From assembly GCF_000024925.1 (NCBI RefSeq), contig NC_013521.1, forward strand, positions 620,001 to 684,000: 64,000 nucleotides of DNA, written 5' to 3'. Shown in pieces: positions 1 to 64,000 of this stretch. The notes under the pieces are model-generated. The model was not told the origin of the DNA. It did not search any database and saw nothing but the letters and a program-made list of their open reading frames with translations. The translations under genes and the position numbers were made by a program. The stretch's first letter is position 1. Every line of letters starts with the position of its first letter. The stretch comes from Sanguibacter keddieii DSM 10542. Its GTDB lineage: Bacteria > Actinomycetota > Actinomycetes > Actinomycetales > Cellulomonadaceae.

Positions 1-11
1 CGCCTCAGACG

Positions 12-3000
12 GTGACGCTCGATCCCATCTCACTAGGAGGAGAGGAGGCGCAGGCATCTGCCCAAATCGTAGGAGGAATATTGGACTCGTCTGAATTTTA
101 TCAGAGGTTTGTGAATTTATATCCCCTCGAGAGGCCGGCGGGCGAACACGCCAGCCCACACGAGATGTTTTCAGCGCTCGACTTTAAACTTCGATTCCTG
201 TCAATCATAGCGAATTCCGTCTTAAGATCAAGTGACGAAATTGAAGCGCCGAAGATCGGGCGGTCACCCGGACTGGGCGCCTGGGTGTCATATTTGCGAG
301 TTTGTCGGGATACTCTCGGCCAGTCGCGGGGGGAAGCGTCCAAACTGACACATGGTGCGGTCGATAGTGCACTCACCGCCTACGATGGCGGGATCGATAT
401 GGGGATCAGCAAGATTCGTACCCCAAAGAAGCTACGCGACCACTTGGGGCACGGTGGAGCGTTGCCCCCATATGCTGAAGTTTCGGAGCCGCTCAGGGGG
501 TTGCTCGATTCAGTGGATGTAGCTATTGAAAAATTACTCGGAGCAACCGGCTTGGTTCTATCCGAATCGAACGGATCGACTCGAGCAAGTTTCAAATTCG
601 AAGACAGGGAGGTCTCAACCTGGCCGCTGATCTTCAGTCCGACCACCGATGAGTGGTGCATTTTTTCAAGGTATGTGGCGAACGGCCGGCCATCCTACTT
701 CTCCTTCGGTACGGATCGCGTCGAAGCGTCAAGTATTCCCGACAACCTAGGCGGAGCACTTAATCGGATCTTGGATTCCACCGCTCCGCGGGGGGCTCTT
801 GGGGCTTTCAAGGAGGATGTAACTAGCGATCTCCGTGGCTTCACCGAAGAGCTCGAGGAAGATCTGACTCCTGGTGATCGAGATCACGGTTTCGAGGTGT
901 GGTGGAAAAAGGCGACGGGCACAGGGATTGGCTTTGAGGAAAGAGTAGACTACTTCCGGCTCGGTCCGGATGACATGCGTCAATGGCGATCGCCTGAAAA
1001 ATGGGTGCCCTATTCTCGTTACCTTCGGGAGATTGCCAACTGGCCCCTAACGGCCCGCCGGATTCGAATAGCCTTAGAAGAGCACTCAAGGAAACTGGCG
1101 TCTCAAGAAGTTCAGAATCTGGGTTGGCGCCTGGGTGGGGAGGGGCAATACCGTGAGTCTTCGTTGCTGGTGACAGACCTGGATGGGTCCAATCGAAGCG
1201 AGTCATCATTCTCTGACCTGCTCAATTCTGTTGACGAGGACCTCCAGGCGAATAGGCCGCAAACGCAAGTCGTATTTGTCAACGGCGAAGCGGGCATAGG
1301 AAAAACCCGAGCGATGATCGGCGCTGCGCTTCATCGCGCAAGAACGATTGAGGAGGAGGCAGGAGAGCACCGTGATTCCGATCTGCCCCTTCTTCTATAC
1401 GTCGGCTCGTCTGGGCAGGTTTTGAGTCAACTCGATAACGTTATAGCTGCTGCGGTTTCAAGTACGCGAAGCATTACAGCCGCTGCCGTTAAGGCGCTCT
1501 GTCGAAACGGGCTCATGGCACTTCTCGTTGATGGATTCGACGAACTCTTGGGCAACGTCAGATATAACGATGCCTTAGGGTCCTTGCGCCCGTGGCTAGA
1601 AGACATGGGCGGGCGTGGGGTGCTGATGGTTTCGGCGCGCTCGTCTTACTACGTCGGTCAATACAAGGCAAGCGTAAGACGGGCGCACGAGGGCAGTGCC
1701 ATGAGCGTGCACCACAAAATCGCAGAGATTCAACTTTGGAAAGCGCGAGACATTCGAGAAGTATTAACTTCCTATGGGGTTGACCCGAGCGTGCTTGTCA
1801 ACTTGAGCGAAGAGGACCGGCAATTGCTCAGGCTCCCCTTCTTCACAAGGGCGTTCATCGAAATGTGCCTGTCTGAAGAAGCGGGCATCCCAACAGGAAC
1901 TTCCTTGCCCGAGCACTTGCTAGATCAGTATCTGACTCGTGAAGAAGGGAAAATACTTGATGAGTCGGGAAGATCTGTAATCTCTCACAGAGAACTGAAG
2001 ACTATGTTCAGCTATGTTGCAGAACTTATGGAGGAGAATTCGGAGCGGGAGGCGGATGACGAACTTCTTCGAACCGCTGCAATGTTCACGATCGACGATT
2101 CGCTCGAGTCGCGTACTGGTCTGGCTGAAAGATTGCCGAACCTTTGCGGGTTTGCGACCACCACCAGTGGTGGTGCTCAATTGCGGTTCAAGTTCCAGCA
2201 CGAACTTTTCTTTGACCAGTTTTTGGCAGACGCAGTGTCCCGTTATTTAGGTGGGAGTGAAGTATCGGAACGGTTCAAGGCAATGCTCGGGTCGTCCGTG
2301 TGGCGCACGGCAACGGTTAACCGGGTAGGTTCCAGCGTTTCGATAGATCGTCTTTCCTCCGTGCTTGGTGGTGATTTTGCGGACGGCGAGACTGCAGCGC
2401 GGAGAAGCACGGCGGCACTGAATGTGGGCAGCTTGTGGCAGACTCTGATATCCAGATCCAAATCGATGGATTGGACCATTCGCAGCGCGGACCTTATTGA
2501 CCCATTGGACCTGAGTGGGAGTGAGCCTGGCGTGATGGTAATGAGTAATGTGAAGGTCGAGTCTCTCGTCCTGCCTAGAAGGACTGGTTGGCGAATATCG
2601 CTGCAGAGCACAAGGATTCGCAGGATCCATGCTCAGATTCTAGACTTCAGTGGCTTGTCAGGCGTCGATGCGTCCGCGATTGTCGAGATCCTAACGCCAA
2701 ATCGTTTAATTGAAAAGCCTTCAGAGATCCGTGATGTTCTAGAGAAGTACGGCGCTCGTTTGGTCGACGCCGGCCCGACTCCAGAAGAGCGCAACAAAGT
2801 TCTGCCGGAGGCTGCAACATTTTTTCTGCGTCGGGCTATTGATAGAGGCGAGTATTTCTGGGTCCTCAAAAGGAACCATCGAACTCCAGATGACGACCTT
2901 CTCGCGCGGAAGAGAACGGAAGACGTTTATGGCAGAGAGGTCTGGCTCGCCTTTATCAAGGCAATGCTCGATTCGGGCTTAGCGGTGGAGGAATCTATTG

Positions 3001-3116
3001 CGAGATCGGGTTCCGCGAAGATCCGGGTCCGCTTACTGAAGAACGGTTCAGATATACTTGGTGAGGATCGCTCGGACGAGAGAGTTCGAGATTTCTGGCG
3101 CAGGATGATGCGTTGA
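12..3116 (+). CDS. NACHT/STAND-type P-loop NTPase, candidate defence protein (5' end uncertain)
   Basis: A 1034-residue protein with a P-loop NTPase in its middle. The Walker A motif GEAGIGKT lies at about residues 425-432. The Walker B-like stretch LLVDGFDELL (about 504-513) has the acidic pattern typical of NACHT and STAND ATPases. A helical segment with FQHELFFDQFLAD (about 735-748) resembles the winged-helix end of NACHT modules. The N-terminal 400 residues and the C-terminal 250 match nothing I recognise and may be sensor or effector parts. Base composition and codon use (many AT-ending codons) differ sharply from the rest of the window, which suggests horizontal transfer. The reading frame is open to the window edge, so GTG at 12 may not be the true start. 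Bacterial NACHT proteins are known anti-phage factors; that role here is inference. Confidence 0.7.
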   Translation: MTLDPISLGGEEAQASAQIVGGILDSSEFYQRFVNLYPLERPAGEHASPHEMFSALDFKLRFLSIIANSVLRSSDEIEAPKIGRSPGLGAWVSYLRVCRDTLGQSRGEASKLTHGAVDSALTAYDGGIDMGISKIRTPKKLRDHLGHGGALPPYAEVSEPLRGLLDSVDVAIEKLLGATGLVLSESNGSTRASFKFEDREVSTWPLIFSPTTDEWCIFSRYVANGRPSYFSFGTDRVEASSIPDNLGGALNRILDSTAPRGALGAFKEDVTSDLRGFTEELEEDLTPGDRDHGFEVWWKKATGTGIGFEERVDYFRLGPDDMRQWRSPEKWVPYSRYLREIANWPLTARRIRIALEEHSRKLASQEVQNLGWRLGGEGQYRESSLLVTDLDGSNRSESSFSDLLNSVDEDLQANRPQTQVVFVNGEAGIGKTRAMIGAALHRARTIEEEAGEHRDSDLPLLLYVGSSGQVLSQLDNVIAAAVSSTRSITAAAVKALCRNGLMALLVDGFDELLGNVRYNDALGSLRPWLEDMGGRGVLMVSARSSYYVGQYKASVRRAHEGSAMSVHHKIAEIQLWKARDIREVLTSYGVDPSVLVNLSEEDRQLLRLPFFTRAFIEMCLSEEAGIPTGTSLPEHLLDQYLTREEGKILDESGRSVISHRELKTMFSYVAELMEENSEREADDELLRTAAMFTIDDSLESRTGLAERLPNLCGFATTTSGGAQLRFKFQHELFFDQFLADAVSRYLGGSEVSERFKAMLGSSVWRTATVNRVGSSVSIDRLSSVLGGDFADGETAARRSTAALNVGSLWQTLISRSKSMDWTIRSADLIDPLDLSGSEPGVMVMSNVKVESLVLPRRTGWRISLQSTRIRRIHAQILDFSGLSGVDASAIVEILTPNRLIEKPSEIRDVLEKYGARLVDAGPTPEERNKVLPEAATFFLRRAIDRGEYFWVLKRNHRTPDDDLLARKRTEDVYGREVWLAFIKAMLDSGLAVEESIARSGSAKIRVRLLKNGSDILGEDRSDERVRDFWRRMMR

Positions 3117-3458
3117 ACAGTTGTCCACTTTCTGTCGGGTGGTCATGCGTCCCGTTTGGCTGGAATACGCTTGCATGCGATATTGATGTGGCGTATGGGC
3201 GGGTTAGCGCCGCCTCAGGTCTGATGGTGTCTAGCGAATGGCCCTGGCCAGGCTCGGAGTCCTAGCCTGGGTGCGAGGCCGGGTGAAGACTGTCCACAGG
3301 GTGACGAGCACCCTCGATCGCTCTTGCCAGGCACGGTAAAGTGCCCTGGACTGCCCTGCGCTCCGCCCCAGGCGACCAGTGACCGCCCGAACCGGCCGGC
3401 ACGGGTCACGGACCGGCGGAGACGATGGCGCGGGACCACCATCGGGAGGGGACGGACC
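3117..3458. other. Intergenic boundary between low-GC island and high-GC operon
   Basis: This gap of about 340 bp holds no convincing gene. Composition changes from mixed to strongly GC-rich near 3230, marking the downstream edge of the acquired segment. No tRNA, integrase site or terminal inverted repeat was seen. The right half should carry the promoter of the downstream kinase/phosphatase operon. Confidence 0.5.
3327..3349 (+). promoter_or_regulatory. Candidate promoter/operator of the FHA-PP2C-kinase operon
   Basis: Inverted repeat CCAGGCAC / GTGCC(C)TGG encloses GGTAAA, and TAAAGT (3337-3342) fits an actinobacterial -10 element. The -35 region is poor. If used, the leader to the GTG at 3459 is about 110 nt. 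This is weak evidence. Confidence 0.3.
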
Positions 3459-48991: not shown

Positions 48992-50425
48992 TCAGGTGAG
49001 GTCGAGGCCGAGCAGCGCGTTCTCGGTGACCTCGGGCAGCGCGGGGTGGATCCAGTACTGCCGGTCGGCGACCTCGCGCACGTCGAGGTCGAAGGCCATC
49101 ACGGTGATCATCTGCTGGATGAGGGTGGAGGCCTGCGGACCCATGTAGTGGGCTCCCAGCAGCCGCCCGGTGGTGCGGTCTGCGACGAGCTTCACCAACC
49201 CGGTCGTGTCCTCCATGGCCCAGCCGTAGGCGACGTCCCCGTACCGCTGCAGCGACGTGGCGACGTCGTGCCCGGCGTCCCGGGCCTGCTGCTCGGTCAT
49301 GCCGACGGTGGCGACCTGCGGGTCGGTGAACACCGCCGAGGGGACGTTCTCGTGGGGCATGCGGCGCAGGTCCTCGGGGTGGAGCAGGTTGTGGCGCACC
49401 GCGCGCATCTCGGCGTTGGCGACGTGCTTGAGCATGAACGGCGACGAGACGTCGCCCAGGGCCCACACCCCCGGCGCGGAGGTCGAGCGGCCGTTCGGGT
49501 CGACGTCGACGCGCCCGTCGTCGGTCGTCGCGATGCCGGCGGCGGCGAGGTCCAGGAGGTCGGCGTTGGGCGTGCGGCCGGTGGCGACCAGCAGCGCCTC
49601 GGCGGTCACGGCTGAGCCGTCGTCGAGCCGCAGCGTGACCCCGTCGGCGTCCTGGTCGGCGCCGACGACGCCGCGCCCGGCGAGGACGGTGAACCGTTCG
49701 GCGGCCATCCGGTTGAAGGGTTCGTGCAGGTCCGCGTCGAGCGTGCGCAGCAGGGACGAGCGGGCGACGATCGTCACCGCGGTGCCGAGGGCCTCGAAGA
49801 CGTGCCCGAGCTCCATCGCGATGTAGCCGCCCCCGAGGATCACGAGGGACCTCGGCAGCGTGGGCAGCCGCATGATGTCCTCGTTCGTGTGGAAGTGCAC
49901 CCCGGAGTCGGCGATCACCTGGGGGACCACCGGGCGCGAGCCCGCCGCGACGACCACCTGGTCTGCGGAGATGATCTTCTGGTGGGTGCCCTGGCCGGTG
50001 CGCAGGGTGCGTTCACCGACGAACACGGCGTGCTGGTCGTAGACGTCGATGTTCGGGGTCTGCGGACCGCGCCGGTAGGCCTCGCCGCCGGCTGCGAACG
50101 GGTCGATGCGCTGGTCGAACACCCGCGAGACGATCCCGGGCCAGTCCACACCGTGCACCGCGGCGTCCAGGCCCAGCCGTCCCGCGTGCTCGGTGGCCCG
50201 GGCCACGTCGGCCGTGTAGACGAACATCTTGGAGGGGATGCAGCCGACGTTGAGGCAGGTCCCGCCGAAGCGGCCCTCCTCGACGATCGCGACGGACCAG
50301 CCGTCGAGCTCCGGGCCCGGCAGCGAGTTGCCGGAGCCCGCGCCCAGGACGATGAGGTCGTAGTGGGCGTCGGCGTCGAGGTCGGCGTCGAGGTCGCGGT
50401 CGGTGCCGGGCTCGGTGGCGGTCAC
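48992..50425 (-). CDS. mtr: Mycothione reductase
   Basis: A 477-residue FAD/NAD(P)H disulfide reductase that recycles mycothiol disulfide. The FAD loop reads IVLGAGSGNSLPG, the redox pair is in GGTCLNVGCIPSK, the NAD(P)H loop is ILGGGYIAMELGHVF, and the interface histidine-glutamate is in YWIHPALPEVTENALL. The GSGNS variant is typical of mycothione reductases rather than lipoamide dehydrogenases. GTG 50425 is chosen because AGGAG lies 5 nt upstream; an earlier GTG at 50473 lacks this. Confidence 0.9.
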   Translation of the reverse strand: MTATEPGTDRDLDADLDADAHYDLIVLGAGSGNSLPGPELDGWSVAIVEEGRFGGTCLNVGCIPSKMFVYTADVARATEHAGRLGLDAAVHGVDWPGIVSRVFDQRIDPFAAGGEAYRRGPQTPNIDVYDQHAVFVGERTLRTGQGTHQKIISADQVVVAAGSRPVVPQVIADSGVHFHTNEDIMRLPTLPRSLVILGGGYIAMELGHVFEALGTAVTIVARSSLLRTLDADLHEPFNRMAAERFTVLAGRGVVGADQDADGVTLRLDDGSAVTAEALLVATGRTPNADLLDLAAAGIATTDDGRVDVDPNGRSTSAPGVWALGDVSSPFMLKHVANAEMRAVRHNLLHPEDLRRMPHENVPSAVFTDPQVATVGMTEQQARDAGHDVATSLQRYGDVAYGWAMEDTTGLVKLVADRTTGRLLGAHYMGPQASTLIQQMITVMAFDLDVREVADRQYWIHPALPEVTENALLGLDLT

Positions 50426-50606
50426 GGTGGCTCCTGGTGCGCGAGGGCGGGTGGGCGAGCTCGGGGTCTTCACGCGCTCACGCTAGACCCGCCCCTCCGT
50501 CGGCGCTCACCGCCTCGAGCGAGCCACGGGGGCCGCGAGACGCCCGCGTCCGCATCGCAAGACGCCTGCTCACATCGCGGCACGCCAGTGCGACAGTCAT
50601 CCCATC

Positions 50607-50699
50607 ATGCGCCGCGACACGACCGTGCTCCAGCACGTCAGCCCCCTTGCACAGCCCCGCCTCTCCGGCGCCGGCTGCTGTTGTCGCTGTAGCCGCTGA
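50607..50699 (+). CDS. Polycysteine leader peptide ORF (putative attenuator)
   Basis: A 30-codon ORF starting MRRDTTVLQHV and ending CCCRCSR just before its stop: four cysteine codons within five. Short actinobacterial upstream ORFs ending in cysteine runs are known in mycobacteria to act as cysteine-responsive attenuators. It lies 329 bp before the ABC importer operon on the same strand, in a long region without another gene. No ribosome site precedes the ATG. A GACAGT (50592-50597) could be a -10 element giving a nearly leaderless message. Confidence 0.6.
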   Translation: MRRDTTVLQHVSPLAQPRLSGAGCCCRCSR

Positions 50700-50787
50700 G
50701 CGGTTCGCCACCAGACTCGCAGCACGGCCCAGGGCAGGGGCCAGACACGTGAGACGGTCCCCGACCGCTCCCTGATCGCCGTCACCA

Positions 50788-50804
50788 CCCGCGCACCGCG
50801 CGGG
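50788..50804 (+). terminator. GC hairpin in the importer leader
   Basis: CCCGCGC-ACC-GCGCGGG, a perfect 7-bp stem with a 3-nt loop, lies between the polycysteine ORF and the importer. It could serve as the conditional terminator of an attenuator. A weaker fold (50691-50705) overlaps the leader ORF stop. The remainder of 50700-51028 shows no gene. Confidence 0.45.
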
Positions 50805-51028
50805 ACTCGCTGACCTCGACCAGGCCGCTCGACCCCTCGAGCCCCTCCGCACCCCGGCCCGTCGACCCGACGGACCCGGTCGTCGCACCTCCGCTCCCGC
50901 ACCCCGGACGCCCGGGGCTGCCGAGGAGCACCCGCGCACCCCCTCACCCCTCACGTCCCGGTCGACGCCGGGAGCGTGCCATCCTCGCCCGAGCGGTCCA
51001 CCGACCGTCCGGGCAGAACGGACCACCT

Positions 51029-52552
51029 GTGCGAATCCCCACCGCGGCCAAGGCCGCAGCGGCCCTGATCACCGCCTCCCTCGTCCTCACCGCGTGCTCC
51101 GCAGACGCCTCGGACACCGAGGCGGGCTCCGGCAGCACCTCGGCGACCGGGTTCTCCGACGAGATCGTCATCGGCTCGACCAACGAGCCCACCGGCCTGG
51201 TCCGCAACGTCGGCGGCAGCTCCGGCATCTCGCAGACCATGACGCGCAACGTCTACGAGGGCCTCACCTCGGTCGACGTGGACGGCACCGTGGTCCCCAC
51301 GCTCGCCGAGTCCTGGGACGTGTCCGAGGACGGCCTCACCTACACCTTCCACCTGCAGCAGGGCGTCACCTTCCACGACGGCACGCCGTTCACCGCGGCC
51401 GACGTCGCGTGGAGCATCTCGGAGGCCATCGGCCCCGACTCCAAGAGCGCTCGCAAGAACGACCTCCTCGTCATCACCGACATCGCCCAGCCCGACGAGG
51501 AGACCGTGGAGCTCACGCTCTCGCGCCGCAGCCAGTCGCTGCTGTTCAACCTCGCGTCGGTCACCGTCGTCAAGGACGGCGACACGGAGCTCACCAGCGA
51601 CAACGGCACGGGGCCGTACCGGTTCGTCGAGTGGACGCAGGGCGACCACCTCACCATCGAGCGCAACGCCGACTACTGGGGCGAGCAGCCCAAGAACGAG
51701 GGCGTGACCTTCCGGTTCTTCAAGGACACCACCGCGCTCAACAACGCGCTGCTCACCGGTGACCTCGACCTCGTCATCGCCGAGGACTCCCCGGACCAGC
51801 TCCTCCAGTTCGAGGGCAACGACGACTTCACCATCACCGAGGGCACCTCGACCACCAAGCAGCTGTGGGCCTTCAACGACCGCGAGGCTCCCTTCGACGA
51901 CGTCCGCGTCCGCCAGGCGCTCTACAAGGCTCTCGACCGCGAGCGCATCCTCGACACCGTGTGGGATGGCTACGGCCAGGTCATCGGCTCGATGGTCCCC
52001 CCGACGGACCCGTGGTTCATCGAGAACCTGGCCGACGAGCACGCCTACGACCCCGCAGCCGCCGAGGCGCTCCTCGACGAGGCCGGCGTGTCCGACCTCG
52101 AGATCACGGTCGACTACGTGGCGGGCGAGCCGTCCGACACGATCGCGCAGCTCATCCAGACGGACCTCGCGGACGTGGGTGTCACGCTGACGCTCAACCC
52201 GATCGACGACGCGACCTGGTACCAGAAGATCTACACGGACCACGACTTCGAGACGACGATCATGGGTCACGTGAACCCGCGCGACGTCGTCTGGTACGCG
52301 AACCCGGACTTCTACTGGGGCTACGACAACGCGGACGTCCAGCAGTGGGTGGCTGACGCCGACGCGGCGACGTCCGAGGAGGAGCAGGTCGAGCTGCTCA
52401 CGCAGGTCAACCAGACCATCGGCGAGGAGGCGGCCACGGCGTGGCTGTACCTCGACCCGCAGATCCGCGTGGCCCGCTCGGAGATCAGCGGCTTCCCGGT
52501 CGACCAGGTGACGGAGAGCTTCTACGTCGCCGACATCGTCCGCGCTGACTGA
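51029..52552 (+). CDS. Peptide/nickel-type ABC transporter substrate-binding lipoprotein
   Basis: A 507-residue family-5 solute-binding protein. The signal peptide ends in the lipobox LTAC (Cys about 23). The mature protein has NVYEGLTSVDVDGTVVPTLA, YTFHLQQGVTFHDGTPFTAADV (diagnostic part VTFHDGTPF) and PFDDVRVRQALYKALDRERI. It binds a peptide or other small ligand outside the membrane for the following permeases and ATPases. The polycysteine leader suggests a sulfur-containing ligand such as a thiol peptide; this is inference. Confidence 0.92.
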   Translation: MRIPTAAKAAAALITASLVLTACSADASDTEAGSGSTSATGFSDEIVIGSTNEPTGLVRNVGGSSGISQTMTRNVYEGLTSVDVDGTVVPTLAESWDVSEDGLTYTFHLQQGVTFHDGTPFTAADVAWSISEAIGPDSKSARKNDLLVITDIAQPDEETVELTLSRRSQSLLFNLASVTVVKDGDTELTSDNGTGPYRFVEWTQGDHLTIERNADYWGEQPKNEGVTFRFFKDTTALNNALLTGDLDLVIAEDSPDQLLQFEGNDDFTITEGTSTTKQLWAFNDREAPFDDVRVRQALYKALDRERILDTVWDGYGQVIGSMVPPTDPWFIENLADEHAYDPAAAEALLDEAGVSDLEITVDYVAGEPSDTIAQLIQTDLADVGVTLTLNPIDDATWYQKIYTDHDFETTIMGHVNPRDVVWYANPDFYWGYDNADVQQWVADADAATSEEEQVELLTQVNQTIGEEAATAWLYLDPQIRVARSEISGFPVDQVTESFYVADIVRAD

Positions 52553-52572: not shown

Positions 52573-53643
52573 ATGACGTCGTCCCTGCACCCTCCCGCGG
52601 TCGAGCAGCAGCCTGCCGCGCCACCGGCACGTGCACCCAGGCGCGCCCTCAGGGCGAGCGGACCGATGCTCCGGTACGTGGCGGTCCGCCTCGTGACCCT
52701 CGTCGTGTCGCTCGTGCTCGCGGCCGTCGTGGTGTTCGTCGTGCTGCGCCTCCTCCCGGGGGACAGCGCGGGCACGACGCTGGGTGTGGGGACGACGACG
52801 GACCAGCTGGACCAGCTGCGCAGCGAGCTGGGCACCGACCGGTCGGCGCTGACGCAGCTGGGCCAGTGGGCCGGGGCTCTCCTGTCGGGCGACCTCGGCA
52901 CGTCCTTCGTGTCGAGGCTGCCGGTCGGCGAGCTCATCAGCAGCAAGCTCCCCATCACGGTGCCGCTGAGCCTGGCGGCCTTCGTGCTGTCGGTGCTCGT
53001 GTCGGTGCCGCTCGGCGTGATCGCCGCGGTCAGGCGCCGCGGCGTGATCGGCGTCGCGGTGTCGGCGGTCTCCCAGCTGGGGGTCGCGGTCCCGGTGTTC
53101 TGGGTGGGCGTGCTGCTCGTGTGGGTCTTCGCGCTGCGCCTCGGGGTGCTGCCGCCGGGCGGGTTCCCACGGCAGGGCTGGGACGACCCGGCCGCCGCGG
53201 TCCGGTCGCTCGTGCTGCCCGTGGTCACGGTGTCGATCGCGATGTCGTCGGTGATGGTCCGGTACGTGCGGTCGGCGACGCTCGACGTCCTCGACCAGGA
53301 CTACATCAGGACGGCACGGTCGCTCGGCTATGGCCGGTGGCAGGCGCTCGCGCGGCACGGTCTGCGCAACGGCGCGGTTCCGGTGGTCGCGATCCTCGGC
53401 ATCGAGCTCGCGACGTCGCTGCTCGGCGCGGTGGTCATCGAGAACGTGTTCGCCCTGCCGGGCCTGGGCACGCTGCTGCTCGACTCGGTCAACGGCCGGG
53501 ACCTCCCCGTGGTCCAGGCGCTCGTCCTGGCGATCACGGCGGTGGTGCTCGTCGTCAACTTCTTCGTCGACCTGCTGCAGCGGGCCATCGACCCGCGCCT
53601 GCGGCACGGGTCGACGCTCGGCACGTCAGGAGGCTCGCGATGA
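52573..53643 (+). CDS. ABC transporter permease (DppB/OppB type)
   Basis: A 356-residue membrane protein with six helices. RYVAVRLVTLVVSLVLAAVV at the start, the EAA-like loop DYIRTARSLGYGRWQALARHGLRN (diagnostic part IRTARSLGYG) and VVIENVFALPGLGTLLLD are classic for the OppB/DppB class. It begins 20 bp after the binding-protein gene. Its stop overlaps the next start. Confidence 0.93.
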   Translation: MTSSLHPPAVEQQPAAPPARAPRRALRASGPMLRYVAVRLVTLVVSLVLAAVVVFVVLRLLPGDSAGTTLGVGTTTDQLDQLRSELGTDRSALTQLGQWAGALLSGDLGTSFVSRLPVGELISSKLPITVPLSLAAFVLSVLVSVPLGVIAAVRRRGVIGVAVSAVSQLGVAVPVFWVGVLLVWVFALRLGVLPPGGFPRQGWDDPAAAVRSLVLPVVTVSIAMSSVMVRYVRSATLDVLDQDYIRTARSLGYGRWQALARHGLRNGAVPVVAILGIELATSLLGAVVIENVFALPGLGTLLLDSVNGRDLPVVQALVLAITAVVLVVNFFVDLLQRAIDPRLRHGSTLGTSGGSR

Positions 53644-54560
53644 CCGACCAGCTGGACGCGCCCCGCGTCCCCGCAGGTGCTGACGCGGAGAAGAGCGAGA
53701 CTGAGAAGGTCGAGGTCACCGCGCCGCGCCGCGCGTCGGCCCGCCGCCTGCGCAGCCCGTCCTTCGTCGCCGGTGCCTCGATGGTCTCCGTCGTGGTGCT
53801 CGTCGGCCTCGTGGCGTTCTTCTGGACCCCGTACACGATCGGCAGCCGGGGGACGGGCGAGCGTCTGGGCGGACCGAGCGCCGAGTTCTGGCTGGGCACG
53901 GACAAGCTCGGCCGGGACGTGCTGAGCCAGCTCATGGCGGGCGCCACCAACGCGGTGGTGGTCGCGGTGTGCTCCGTGGCGATCGCGGCCGCGATCGGGA
54001 TCACGCTCGGCATCCTCGCGGCCTCGACCACCCGGTGGGTCGACGTCGCGGTCCTCAACGTCGTCGACCTCATGATCGCCTTCCCGACGCTGCTGCTCGC
54101 GATGCTCATCGTCACGGTGCGCGGTGCGTCGTTGTCGTCCGTCATCGCGGCGATCGGCATCTCGGGTGCGGCGGTGATCGCGCGGATCACGCGGGTCAAC
54201 GCCTCGCGGGTGCTCCGCGAGGACTACGTGGTCGCCGCCGCCGCGTCGGGCACGGGGTGGTGGGGGACGGTCCGGCGGCACGTGCTGCCCAACGTCGCCC
54301 CGACGCTGCTCGTCCAGCTCATGCTGCTGGCCGGGGCCGCGATCCTCGCCGAGGCGTCGTTGTCCTACCTCGGGCTCGGCCCCCGACCGCCCTACGCGTC
54401 GTGGGGCCGGATGCTCAACGAGGCGCAGTCGACCATCACGGCGGCGCCGCTCGCCGCGATCCTGCCCGGCCTGCTCATCGCCTGGACGGTGCTGGGCCTC
54501 AACCTGCTCGGGGACGGCATCCGCGAGCGCAGCGACCCGAGCCTGCGAGGAGACCGATGA
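53640..54560 (+). CDS. ABC transporter permease (DppC/OppC type)
   Basis: A 306-residue permease with a charged N-terminal tail. GTDKLGRDVLSQLMAGATN and the loop REDYVVAAAASGTGWWGTVRRH are OppC/DppC features, as is EASLSYLGLGPRPPYASWG. AGGAGG precedes the ATG, which overlaps the previous stop. Six helices are predicted. Its stop overlaps the first ATPase start. Confidence 0.93.
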   Translation: MTDQLDAPRVPAGADAEKSETEKVEVTAPRRASARRLRSPSFVAGASMVSVVVLVGLVAFFWTPYTIGSRGTGERLGGPSAEFWLGTDKLGRDVLSQLMAGATNAVVVAVCSVAIAAAIGITLGILAASTTRWVDVAVLNVVDLMIAFPTLLLAMLIVTVRGASLSSVIAAIGISGAAVIARITRVNASRVLREDYVVAAAASGTGWWGTVRRHVLPNVAPTLLVQLMLLAGAAILAEASLSYLGLGPRPPYASWGRMLNEAQSTITAAPLAAILPGLLIAWTVLGLNLLGDGIRERSDPSLRGDR

Positions 54561-55354
54561 CCGGCCTGGAGGTCCGCGACCTGACGGTGCGCACGTCGGG
54601 CGGACGCACACTGCTCGACTCCGTGAGCTGGGAGGTGCCCTTCGGCGGGCGTCTCGGCATCATCGGCGAGTCCGGGTCGGGCAAGTCGCTCACCGCCGCG
54701 GCGGTCCTCGGGCTGCTGCCCGAGGGCATGACGGCCACCGGCCAGGTGCTGCTCGACGGGCGTGACCTGCTGACGCTCGGCGAGCGCGCGATGCGCCGGG
54801 TCCGTGGGGCGCAGGTCGCGATGGTGTTCCAGGAGCCGCTCACCGCCCTCGACCCGCTGATGACGGTCGGGCGGCAGGTCGCGGGTCCGCTGCGCCTGCA
54901 CCGCGGGGTGTCCCGCGCGAGGGCTCGCGAGCTCACGGCCGACCTGTTCCGGCTGGTGCGCCTCGACGACGCCGAGCGCATCCTCGGCTCGTACCCGTGG
55001 CAGCTGTCGGGAGGCCAGCGTCAGCGCGTCAGCCTCGCGATGGCCCTGGCCTGCGAGCCGCGCGTGCTGCTCGCCGACGAGCCGACCACCGCTCTCGACG
55101 TGACGGTCCAGGCCGAGATGCTCGACCTGCTCGACGACCTCATCGAGCGCACCGGGACGACGCTGGTGTTCGTCTCGCACGACCTGCCGGTCGTCGCCCG
55201 GGTCGCCCGCGACCTCGTGGTGATGCGCTCGGGGCAGGTGGTCGAGGCGTCGACCGTCGCGCAGGCCCTCGAGGCGCCCGCGCACCCGTACACCCGCCAG
55301 CTGCTCGCCGCCGCGCGCGCCGTCAGCCGGCTGCCTCAGGAGGACGAGCGATGA
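54557..55354 (+). CDS. ABC transporter ATPase (DppD/OppD type)
   Basis: A 265-residue ATPase. Walker A is GESGSGKS, the Q-loop FQEPLTALDPLMTVG, the signature LSGGQRQRV, Walker B VLLADEPTTALD and the switch histidine SHD. It lacks the long C-terminal oligopeptide-binding extension with an iron-sulfur-type cysteine set found in many OppD proteins. It is coupled at both ends to its neighbours. Confidence 0.93.
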   Translation: MTGLEVRDLTVRTSGGRTLLDSVSWEVPFGGRLGIIGESGSGKSLTAAAVLGLLPEGMTATGQVLLDGRDLLTLGERAMRRVRGAQVAMVFQEPLTALDPLMTVGRQVAGPLRLHRGVSRARARELTADLFRLVRLDDAERILGSYPWQLSGGQRQRVSLAMALACEPRVLLADEPTTALDVTVQAEMLDLLDDLIERTGTTLVFVSHDLPVVARVARDLVVMRSGQVVEASTVAQALEAPAHPYTRQLLAAARAVSRLPQEDER

Positions 55355-56172
55355 GCGAGGACACAGCGGCCGGCGAGAGCGACGGAGCAGGCACGACCTC
55401 GGGCGTCCCTCTCCTCGCGCTGCAGGGCGTCCGCCGGGAGTTCGGCGGTCGCGGTCGGACGACAACGGCCCTCGACGGCGTCGACATCGCCGTGCACGAG
55501 GGGCGCAGCGTCGGGATCGTGGGGGAGTCCGGGGCGGGGAAGTCGACGCTGCTGCGACTCATGCTCGGCCTGGACACCCCGACGTCGGGGCAGGTCACGT
55601 ACCGCGGCCAGACCCTCGACCGCCGTGACCGGGCGCGGCTCAAGCGCTTCCGGCGTGAGGTGCAGGTCGTGTTCCAGGACCCGCGCTCGTCGCTGGACCC
55701 GCGCATGACCGTCGCGCAGATCGTCGCCGAGCCGCTGCAGTCGCTGCGCATCGGCGCCGACCAGCGCGAGCGTTCTGCGCGCGTCGACGAGGTGCTCGGC
55801 TGGGTGGGCCTCGACGCCGACGCGCGGCGCAAGTACCCGGCGCAGTTCTCGGGCGGGCAGCGCCAGCGCATCGCCATCGCGCGGGCCCTCGCCCCGTCGC
55901 CGAAGGTGCTCGTCGGCGACGAGCCGGTGAGCGCGCTCGACGTCTCGGTGCGCCAGCAGATCATGGAGCTGCTGGCCCGGCTGCGCGCCGAGCTGGGCCT
56001 CACCCTGGTGCTGGTCAGCCACGACGTGGCGATCGTCGGGCAGCTCTGCGAGGAGACCGTCGTGCTGCGCGGCGGTCGCGTCGAGGAGGCGGGCGAGACC
56101 CGTCAGGTGCTCACGCGACCGGCGTCGCCGTACACCCGCGCCCTGCTCGACGCGGTGCCGACGCTGGGGTGA
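55351..56172 (+). CDS. ABC transporter ATPase (DppF/OppF type)
   Basis: A 273-residue ATPase. Walker A is GESGAGKST, the Q-loop FQDPRSSLDPRMTV, the signature FSGGQRQRI, Walker B VLVGDEPVSALD and the switch SHDV. The C-terminus SPYTRALLDAVP is typical of the family. CAGGAGGA precedes the ATG. It is the last gene of the five-gene importer operon. Confidence 0.93.
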   Translation: MSEDTAAGESDGAGTTSGVPLLALQGVRREFGGRGRTTTALDGVDIAVHEGRSVGIVGESGAGKSTLLRLMLGLDTPTSGQVTYRGQTLDRRDRARLKRFRREVQVVFQDPRSSLDPRMTVAQIVAEPLQSLRIGADQRERSARVDEVLGWVGLDADARRKYPAQFSGGQRQRIAIARALAPSPKVLVGDEPVSALDVSVRQQIMELLARLRAELGLTLVLVSHDVAIVGQLCEETVVLRGGRVEEAGETRQVLTRPASPYTRALLDAVPTLG

Positions 56173-63432: not shown

Positions 63433-64000
63433 TCAGGCCTCTGACCACTCCCCGGTCGTGAGGAACTGCTCCATGCGCTCCAGGTGCGGGGCCACGTCGA
63501 AGCCCTGCGCGGCGACCCAGGCGTCGTCGTAGTAGGTGCTCGCGTAGCGTGCGCCGCCGTCGCACAGCAGGGTGACGACGCTGCCCTGCTCGCCGGCGGC
63601 GAGCATCTGGGCGACGAGCTGGAAGGCGCCCACGAGGTTGGTGCCCGTCGAGCCGCCCGCCCAGTGCATGGTGCGCTCCTGGAGCAGCCGGATCGCCGCG
63701 AGCGACGCGGCGTCGGGCACCGGGATCATCTCGTCGACGAGCTCGGGCACGAAGGACGGCTCGACCCGTGGCCGGCCGATCCCCTCGATGCGGCTCGAGA
63801 GGCCGGTGGTGTACGAGAGGTCGCCGGTGCTCCACCCGCCGTAGAAGGCCGACCCCTCGGGGTCCACCACGGCGATGCGCGTGGGGTGGCGCCGGTAGCG
63901 GACGTAGCGGCCGAAGGTCGCGCTCGTGCCGCCGGTGCCTGCGCCGACCACCACCCAGGACGGCACCGGGTGCCGCTCGGCCGAGAGCTGGGCGAAGGTG
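63433..64000 (-). CDS. PLP-dependent cysteine synthase-family protein, partial
   Basis: The C-terminal 188 codons of a gene whose 5' part lies beyond the window; the frame is open to the last base. FAQLSAERHPVPSWVVVGAGTGGTSAT, seen in parts WVVVGAGTGGTSAT and RYVRYRRHP, is typical of the fold-type II PLP enzymes (cysteine synthase/cystathionine beta-synthase group). So are GSTGTNLVGAFQLVAQM and TLLCDGGARYASTYYDD. The exact reaction cannot be assigned from this part. Confidence 0.85.
   Translation of the reverse strand, partial: TFAQLSAERHPVPSWVVVGAGTGGTSATFGRYVRYRRHPTRIAVVDPEGSAFYGGWSTGDLSYTTGLSSRIEGIGRPRVEPSFVPELVDEMIPVPDAASLAAIRLLQERTMHWAGGSTGTNLVGAFQLVAQMLAAGEQGSVVTLLCDGGARYASTYYDDAWVAAQGFDVAPHLERMEQFLTTGEWSEA

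Follow-up and report, generated by a model that had tools for sequence, protein, structure and literature searches.

The genome of Sanguibacter keddieii DSM 10542 (Cellulomonadaceae) is one contig of 4.25 Mb. We analyzed a stretch of 64,000 nucleotides from it (positions 620,001 to 684,000 of NC_013521.1), which we will call the window; coordinates are those of the window unless a contig position is named. The window contains an operon with an SBP_bac_5 binding protein, two BPD_transp_1 permeases, and two ABC ATPases, which makes it an Opp/Dpp-type importer, as the first-pass annotation of this DNA had recognized. Downstream of permease 1, each gene begins a few bases before the preceding one ends, an arrangement of the kind seen in translationally coupled operons. 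The divergent neighbor is mycothione reductase (mtr; TIGR03452, 748 bits versus a cut-off of 636), and 555 bp (50474-51028) separate mtr from the importer. An empty leader of 600 bp had been described here; the gap is real, but it is not quite that long. A 30-codon ORF whose product ends in CCCRCSR had also been reported, and it is indeed present: this upstream ORF (uORF) runs from ATG to TGA at 50607-50699 on the plus strand and encodes the peptide MRRDTTVLQHVSPLAQPRLSGAGCCCRCSR. The features of the locus are:

50592-50597, plus strand: -10-like box GACAGT, 9 nt before the ATG of the uORF, with 3 of 6 matches to TATAAT.
50607-50699, plus strand: uORF of 30 codons plus TGA; a uORF lies at the same position in 27 of 27 testable orthologous loci.
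50676-50690, plus strand: putative sensor codons TGC TGT TGT CGC TGT (Cys Cys Cys Arg Cys), the single match in the window.
50700-50768, plus strand: segment after the stop codon that is able to fold into a hairpin (GCGGTTCG...CGACCGC); the predicted fold is common to Sanguibacter inulinus.
50700-51028, plus strand: untranslated leader, C-rich and G-poor (C-over-G skew), a possible Rho entry region.
50788-50804, plus strand: 7-bp GC hairpin CCCGCGC-ACC-GCGCGGG, 88 nt past the stop codon, with no T tail.
51029-52552, plus strand: solute-binding lipoprotein, SBP_bac_5 (PF00496, E = 1.3e-88).
52573-53643, plus strand: permease 1, OppB/DppB type (PF00528, PF19300).
53640-54560, plus strand: permease 2, OppC/DppC type (PF00528); its start overlaps permease 1.
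54557-55354, plus strand: ABC ATPase 1, OppD type (PF00005).
55351-56172, plus strand: ABC ATPase 2, OppF type (PF00005), with a weak oligo_HPY match (26.3 bits versus a cut-off of 27.1).

Elsewhere in the window, the first 3.3 kb (1-3323) have no gene call and are lower in GC content (0.54) than nearly all of the other gaps: of the 19 others listed, 18 reach at least 0.64.

The cysteine codons form the motif TGYTGYTGYNNNTGY (codon pattern CCCxC), which the 64-kb window contains just once, at 50676-50690; a CCCxC codon pattern appeared in 2 of 100 shuffles. When the 900 nt upstream were shuffled base by base, 3 of 2000 shuffles produced an ATG ORF with at least three cysteines in its last 10 codons; among background windows of 900 nt, taken from ten relatives, 5 of 260 had one. 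The uORFs of the window and of two other importer loci (L116 and L004) had no match over the cut-off to the NCBIfam leader-peptide models NF042934 and NF042936, so no leader-peptide model matched these sampled importer leaders, and none of the three leaders matched a Pfam family. Searched with Rfam covariance models at E-values up to 1, the region 50400-51100 showed no match to a known riboswitch or T-box.

We found the importer (at E ≤ 1e-120) in 30 of 221 genomes of the family. Cellulomonas telluris (L037), added from the named collection, gave a total of 31 importer loci, all at least 58% identical; the closest named relative of the importer is that of Sanguibacter inulinus (97% identical). 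Four of the 31 loci (L120, L122, L129, and L134) were left out because they have too little upstream DNA. In all 27 testable loci, we found an ATG uORF with a cysteine end at the equivalent position, 23 of them by a fixed scan and 4 by reading the sequence (L118, L119, L131, and L037, with 2, 2, 2, and 1 cysteines in the last 10 codons). Thus, both the ORF and its cysteine run are kept in relatives, which was the check proposed by the first-pass annotation. Named loci with the uORF are from Sanguibacter, Oerskovia, and Cellulomonas, and the number of cysteines at its end ranges from 1 to 6. Examples are MFLDLSAPTRTPSTGRHGSTSAARCCRCL from Oerskovia, MRHTTPAARTRACRPLSTAACCCRR from Cellulomonas, MYANTVQKSHAVVRVTATTCCCCCC from genome G022, and MHNNTFPVINTVPRVAGTVCCRCC from genome G017. 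Between clades, the cysteine end alone is kept and the remainder of the peptide shares little. Six Cellulomonas-type leaders, when aligned, lose their conservation directly 3' of the stop codon.

At more distant homologous importers (44-52% identity), the fixed scan identified a Cys-ended uORF at 0 of 62 loci, and a looser rule (two cysteines in the last 7 codons) likewise gave 0 of 62; two further loci in this identity range were excluded for having too little upstream DNA. The fixed scan also gave matches that look like chance, namely a second ORF in L006 and an ORF 835 nt upstream in the distant homologue L017. The motif RRHVDL, a Streptomyces-type leader motif, had no match upstream of the importers of 113 loci.

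Two loci deserve separate mention. The leader of Cellulomonas telluris ends in ...ARASCRG, with one cysteine, and the related L131 ends in ...ARACCRG. The genome that holds L131 (G126) is the sole importer-bearing genome of genus g20 with strong matches to PAPS/APS reductase, so the cysteine sensor may be decaying in this branch. At L119 / L045 (Cellulomonas timonensis), the region that should contain the start codon for the binding protein, immediately upstream of the importer, is replaced by about 90 nt that are unrelated to L118. The replacement begins CTGTCTCTATACC, which we take to resemble a transposon end, and might stem from misassembly. No start codon could be assigned to the binding protein at L119, so tests of leader structure and composition used the other 26 leaders.

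The ATG of the uORF is often preceded by a promoter-like element. At 17 of 25 distinct loci, a -10-like box that agrees with TATAAT at four or more of its 6 bases lies 8-11 nt upstream of the start codon of the uORF, as compared to 155 of 12248 background positions (1.3%). The boxes of relatives include TACAGT, GATAGT, CATACT, and AATACT. A scan for sigma-70 promoters gave no full match. The boxes would suit a uORF whose mRNA is leaderless or nearly so.

Similar leaders precede other genes of cysteine supply. The cysK gene of S. keddieii (at contig position 2724187; TIGR01139, over the cut-off) has a uORF 154 nt upstream that ends in SSPCCLQCL (L225). Using a rule of at least two cysteines in the last 8 codons of an ORF with an ATG or GTG start within 400 nt upstream, we found a Cys-ended ORF before cysK in 20 of 20 chosen genomes of the family (S. 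keddieii included); by this rule, 18 of 320 background windows of the same loci also matched. Among 10 cysK paralogues, drawn from the 19 weaker matches listed, none had a Cys-ended ORF in the 450 nt upstream, and the three that we profiled each scored best with cystathionine beta-synthase, though just short of the cut-off. A purine-rich stretch precedes the GTG or ATG of many cysK leaders, which, unlike the importer leader, thus have the look of Shine-Dalgarno-led ORFs.

In relatives, a Cys-ended uORF also precedes the gene with a strong NIR_SIR match, which we take as a SirA-type sulfite reductase. This was so in 10 of 12 chosen relatives (L207-L212 and L214-L217), and 8 of these leaders have three or more cysteines among their final 8 codons (one, from a genome of the same genus as S. 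keddieii, ends in ...SDSICCCC), while 4 of 144 background 400-nt windows of those loci satisfied the matching rule. Three sirA leaders were scanned with the leader-peptide models. The leader of G089 (L207) was over the cut-off for NF042934, a "putative leader peptide" (32.6 of 27 bits), but below it for NF042936, the "Ms4527A family Cys-rich leader peptide" (26.4 of 45), which did not match the tested importer leaders either; the sirA leaders of G004 and G210 matched neither model.

The genome of S. keddieii may have further members of this set. It has 56 TGYTGYCGNTGA sites, and of the 30 that we examined, one lies in an ATG ORF with a cysteine end while the other 29 have no ATG start in an open frame. 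The one is the uORF MFTSTHAAVTRASAPRRPVMCCRARSMPGGCCR, ending ...MCCRARSMPGGCCR (L175:1411-1512, contig positions of about 521935-522036), which lies 247 nt before a MetQ/NlpA-family lipoprotein (PF03180, 203 bits; TIGR00363 is below its cut-off) that is followed by an ATP-binding-like reading frame. We also scanned 8 loci of this genome with SsuA-like or PF01053 proteins and obtained matches in two. In L219 (1229-1252, near contig position 3579892), a 7-codon ORF encoding MTMRMCC, with TACGAT 6 nt before its ATG, lies about 225 nt before an O-acetylhomoserine/O-acetylserine sulfhydrylase (NF005872, over the cut-off); it is possibly a Met/Cys leader, or else chance. In L206, the matching GTG ORF overlaps the frame and we took it to be chance. 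Cys-ended leaders thus precede the importer, cysK, and the MetQ/NlpA-family lipoprotein in S. keddieii, and also sirA in relatives.

These leaders share an unusual choice of cysteine codon. TGT accounts for 3 of the 4 cysteine codons in the uORF of the window, while the ratio of TGT to TGC is 3:100 in ordinary genes (37 gene calls of the window). In the uORFs of the 27 importer loci, the ratio is 78:22, but these loci are not independent, as there are 23 distinct uORF sequences among 26 leaders. The last 8 codons of 20 cysK leaders have a ratio of 43:14. Ten sirA leaders have 31:19, versus 1:42 in the sirA coding parts that were read, and chance Cys-ended ORFs in the background windows have 14:35. 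Because the cysK and sirA leaders lean the same way and the background ORFs do not, the bias seems to belong to the sensors rather than to one local RNA structure.

The importer tends to occur where sulfate reduction is missing. We found no candidate for PAPS/APS reductase in the genome of S. keddieii (14 of 14 control genomes were positive), and no strong NIR_SIR match: the best is 2.9e-25, as compared to mostly 1e-39 to 1e-46 or so in genomes of the family that have the reductase, and it is probably a nitrite reductase. The five PALP proteins of this genome are threonine ammonia-lyase, CysK, threonine synthase, L-cysteine desulfhydrase (Cds1), and TrpB, with no cystathionine beta-synthase among them. 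Across the family, 18 of 30 importer genomes and 41 of 191 other genomes lack a strong match to PAPS/APS reductase (Fisher p = 3e-5, ignoring shared descent). Within genus g20 (Cellulomonas), the counts are 15 of 16 and 11 of 65 (p = 1e-8, again ignoring descent), and in the genus of S. keddieii the two importer-bearing genomes lack the reductase while four others have it. Four reductase matches with E of 6e-7 to 2e-5 were scored as lacking in these counts, and 35 genomes without a reductase match were assigned by exclusion and by their place in the numbering. Some of the importer-free genomes without a reductase are incomplete assemblies. The association is not universal, as 12 of the 30 importer-bearing genomes keep strong reductase matches; Oerskovia and others carry both the importer and the reductase. 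Given the cysK and sirA leaders, and with sulfate reduction absent here, we suggest that the importer leader points to cysteine supply.

What the binding protein carries is harder to see from its fold. Cysteine 23 of the lipoprotein is invariant in an alignment of 23 rows (A2). When the AlphaFold model of the protein (mean pLDDT 77) was compared to known structures with Foldseek, YliB, CtaP, DppA, AgaA, and NikA matched almost equally. The top two were YliB (1uqw), which we take to be the glutathione-binding protein GsiB, and then the Listeria cysteine-transport protein CtaP (5isu). This ranking of a predicted model is compatible with a cysteine source, yet it fails to tell the substrates apart, so it is a weak hint. 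In the accessible text of the source, CtaP (Lmo0135) is described as an Opp-like binding protein that acts with two permeases in high-affinity cysteine uptake (PMC10269559). CtaP is likewise Opp-like and is the second match to our protein both by phmmer and by Foldseek. However, it is about 26% identical and falls outside the four entries over the threshold of the family profile; we rejected it as an orthologue and make no claim of orthology.

The first-pass annotation had also pointed to mtr. The gene is the divergent neighbor, as claimed, but in a comparison of 13 relatives (the queries being Mtr, permease 1, the binding protein, and flanking genes), mtr was not found in the flank, 6-7 kb upstream, of any of the 13 importer loci. 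Since the arrangement is not conserved, we do not count mtr as a functional neighbor. About 7.4 kb downstream of the importer, Cds1 lies on the minus strand (63559-64000, continuing to contig position 684413; NF052478, 604.9 versus 600 bits). Cds1 could release sulfide from imported cysteine.

We propose that the short ORF is very probably a ribosome-read cysteine sensor, or attenuator, for the importer operon. A ribosome would initiate at the 5' end of the mRNA, or close to it, and then read the 30 codons of the uORF. When charged tRNA-Cys is plentiful, it would pass the cysteine codons, terminate, and leave, and expression of the importer would be cut short. When cysteine is scarce, the ribosome would stall on the cysteine run near the stop codon, and the importer would be made. 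It would then take up a cysteine-containing compound, such as a peptide, cystine, or a thiol. The comparison of genomes supports the existence of the uORF, its conservation, its cysteine end, its position, the codon bias, the company of cysK and sirA, and the missing sulfate reduction. From these we infer translation, stalling, the direction of control, the output step, and the substrate. The core of the first-pass annotation, a cysteine-responsive leader before the importer, is therefore supported by the conservation at 27 of 27 loci along with the cysK and sirA leaders and the absence of sulfate reduction.

This kind of attenuator is already known from mycobacteria, and the peptide-type importer would be a new target. 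The available text of Shell et al. 2015 (PMC4633059) describes leaderless polycysteine ORFs before cysA2, Rv0485, and nirA and proposes cysteine-dependent attenuation, and papers citing Canestrari et al. 2020 (PMC8764745) credit it with cysteine-dependent attenuation. As described in those parts of the sources, the mycobacterial leaders are like the one in the window in being short, Cys-ended, located before an operon for cysteine or sulfur (the role in cysteine supply being our proposal for the importer), and perhaps also leaderless or nearly so. The mycobacterial set includes nirA/Msmeg_4527, which we take as the counterpart of the sirA leaders of Cellulomonadaceae, and none of the three loci named in that text is an importer. 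In contrast, the leaders described here are from Cellulomonadaceae, control a peptide-type importer if our proposal is correct, have a long untranslated gap, lack support for pairing with the ribosome binding site (RBS), and make strong use of TGT. In a literature search by title and the opening of the abstract, with thin coverage of subscription journals, we found no polycysteine leader before a peptide importer.

Other explanations of the uORF account for fewer of these observations. Meaningless ORFs are common in GC-rich leaders, and several longer ORFs overlap this region, so the uORF might be a chance ORF in an untranslated leader. But similar ORFs were rare in the shuffles (3 of 2000), and the presence of the uORF at every testable orthologous locus and at 0 of 62 distant homologues refutes this reading in substance; we give it almost no weight. 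Alternatively, the ORF might encode a functional small protein rich in cysteine, perhaps metal-binding or thiol-sensing, with no sensing by codons. Such a protein would make sense of the CCCRC cluster, and models of the nickel family do match the importer, albeit below their cut-offs (168.7 of 393 bits for the binding protein and 272.7 of 350 for a permease). However, the peptide outside the cysteine end diverges between clades, its cysteines differ in spacing and in number (1 to 6), TGT is preferred among their codons, and similar cysteine ends are found at cysK and sirA, all of which make a functional peptide very improbable. It could also be that the leader senses cysteine while the substrate of the importer is no source of cysteine but, for instance, an ordinary peptide or a metal complex. 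SBP_bac_5 is a broad family, and Foldseek gives almost the same E-values to proteins that bind glutathione, dipeptides, and nickel. Yet in genera g1 and g20 the importer accompanies a loss of sulfate reduction, and YliB and CtaP rank first and second (the weak hint discussed above), so we consider a substrate unrelated to cysteine to be quite unlikely.

If the uORF is a cysteine sensor, how might it act on the importer? The leader of the window, 50700-51028, holds the most C-over-G-skewed 300-nt stretch of the window. In 25 of 26 leaders, the skew is reached by at most 2% of windows of the same length from the same locus (the exception is L006). The argument for Rho from C-richness is weakened because leaders without the uORF are also C-rich: the mean skew is 0.243 in leaders with the uORF versus 0.169 in 62 homologous leaders without it. 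The gap from the uORF to the importer start is 145-446 nt in the 26 leaders, and a scan of 50400-51100 for T-tailed (intrinsic) terminators found none. Because of the long gap and the lack of a T-tailed terminator, our preferred guess is premature termination of transcription in the long C-rich leader, probably linked to Rho, to which we would give roughly even chances. The logic would be like that of tnaC of E. coli, where, according to the available text (PMC3902921), Rho-dependent attenuation involves a leader peptide, a spacer, and a stalled ribosome that permits transcription. The resemblance, which we offer just as an analogy, lies in a leader peptide of 24-36 residues and a spacer before the structural genes; as far as that text describes it, tnaC stalls on free tryptophan via the nascent chain, whereas for the importer leader we propose codon starvation, and the peptide is not conserved.

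Termination might instead be caused by hairpins after the stop codon, without Rho. In 20 of 26 leaders, the 60 nt next to the stop are more stable than the 60 nt that follow (z averages -1.1 over all 26 but is +0.3 for the leader in the window), which gives modest support to a hairpin-forming segment after the stop as an element. The predicted folds are specific to clades: several Cellulomonas leaders have mutually exclusive hairpins (GCGTC/GACGC repeats), and in Oerskovia the cysteine run is predicted to pair with the segment after the stop. We thus rejected a single conserved fold of the leader. The 7-bp GC hairpin 88 nt past the stop that had been noted before is present, but it shrinks to 5 bp in S. 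inulinus and is followed by no T run, so it is neither a conserved element nor a T-tailed terminator. We think hairpin termination without Rho is unlikely. We also consider it unlikely that the leader hides the RBS of the importer until a ribosome stalled on the cysteine run uncovers it, in the mycobacterial style. According to the available part of a 2026 paper (PMC13236596), this is the mechanism cited for M. smegmatis, and there are short hairpin arms just upstream of the RBS in L004, L133, and L006. But across the 26 leaders, duplexes between the cysteine run and the RBS are weaker than those with shuffled tails (mean z of +1.1), so direct pairing is not supported. The computed opening energy of the RBS also showed no consistent change with a stalled ribosome (p = 0.38), so a shift in its accessibility is not supported either, and a gap of 145-446 nt is long for such a mechanism.

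Taken together with the leaders of other genes, a cysteine-sensing uORF before the importer raises a broader idea, which we hold tentatively, at somewhat less than an even chance. One type of cysteine-codon sensor would govern several routes of supply (sirA, cysK, the importer, and perhaps the MetQ-type importer and the sulfhydrylase), the importer would stand in where sulfate reduction has been lost, and the rare codon UGU would be favored as if for sensitivity to uncharged tRNA-Cys. If this is true, then a shortage of cysteine today triggers scavenging in lineages where it used to trigger sulfate reduction. The sensor would extend ribosome-read control by cysteine beyond mycobacteria and onto a nutrient importer, and it would give a branch of the large family of peptide importers a testable class of substrates, the sources of cysteine. 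The bias towards TGT raises a concrete question about codon choice in sensors of amino acids. Furthermore, because cysK, sirA, and the importer share this kind of leader in related genomes, the family may offer a natural test of how a regulon that operates at the level of RNA is kept when a pathway that it served is lost.
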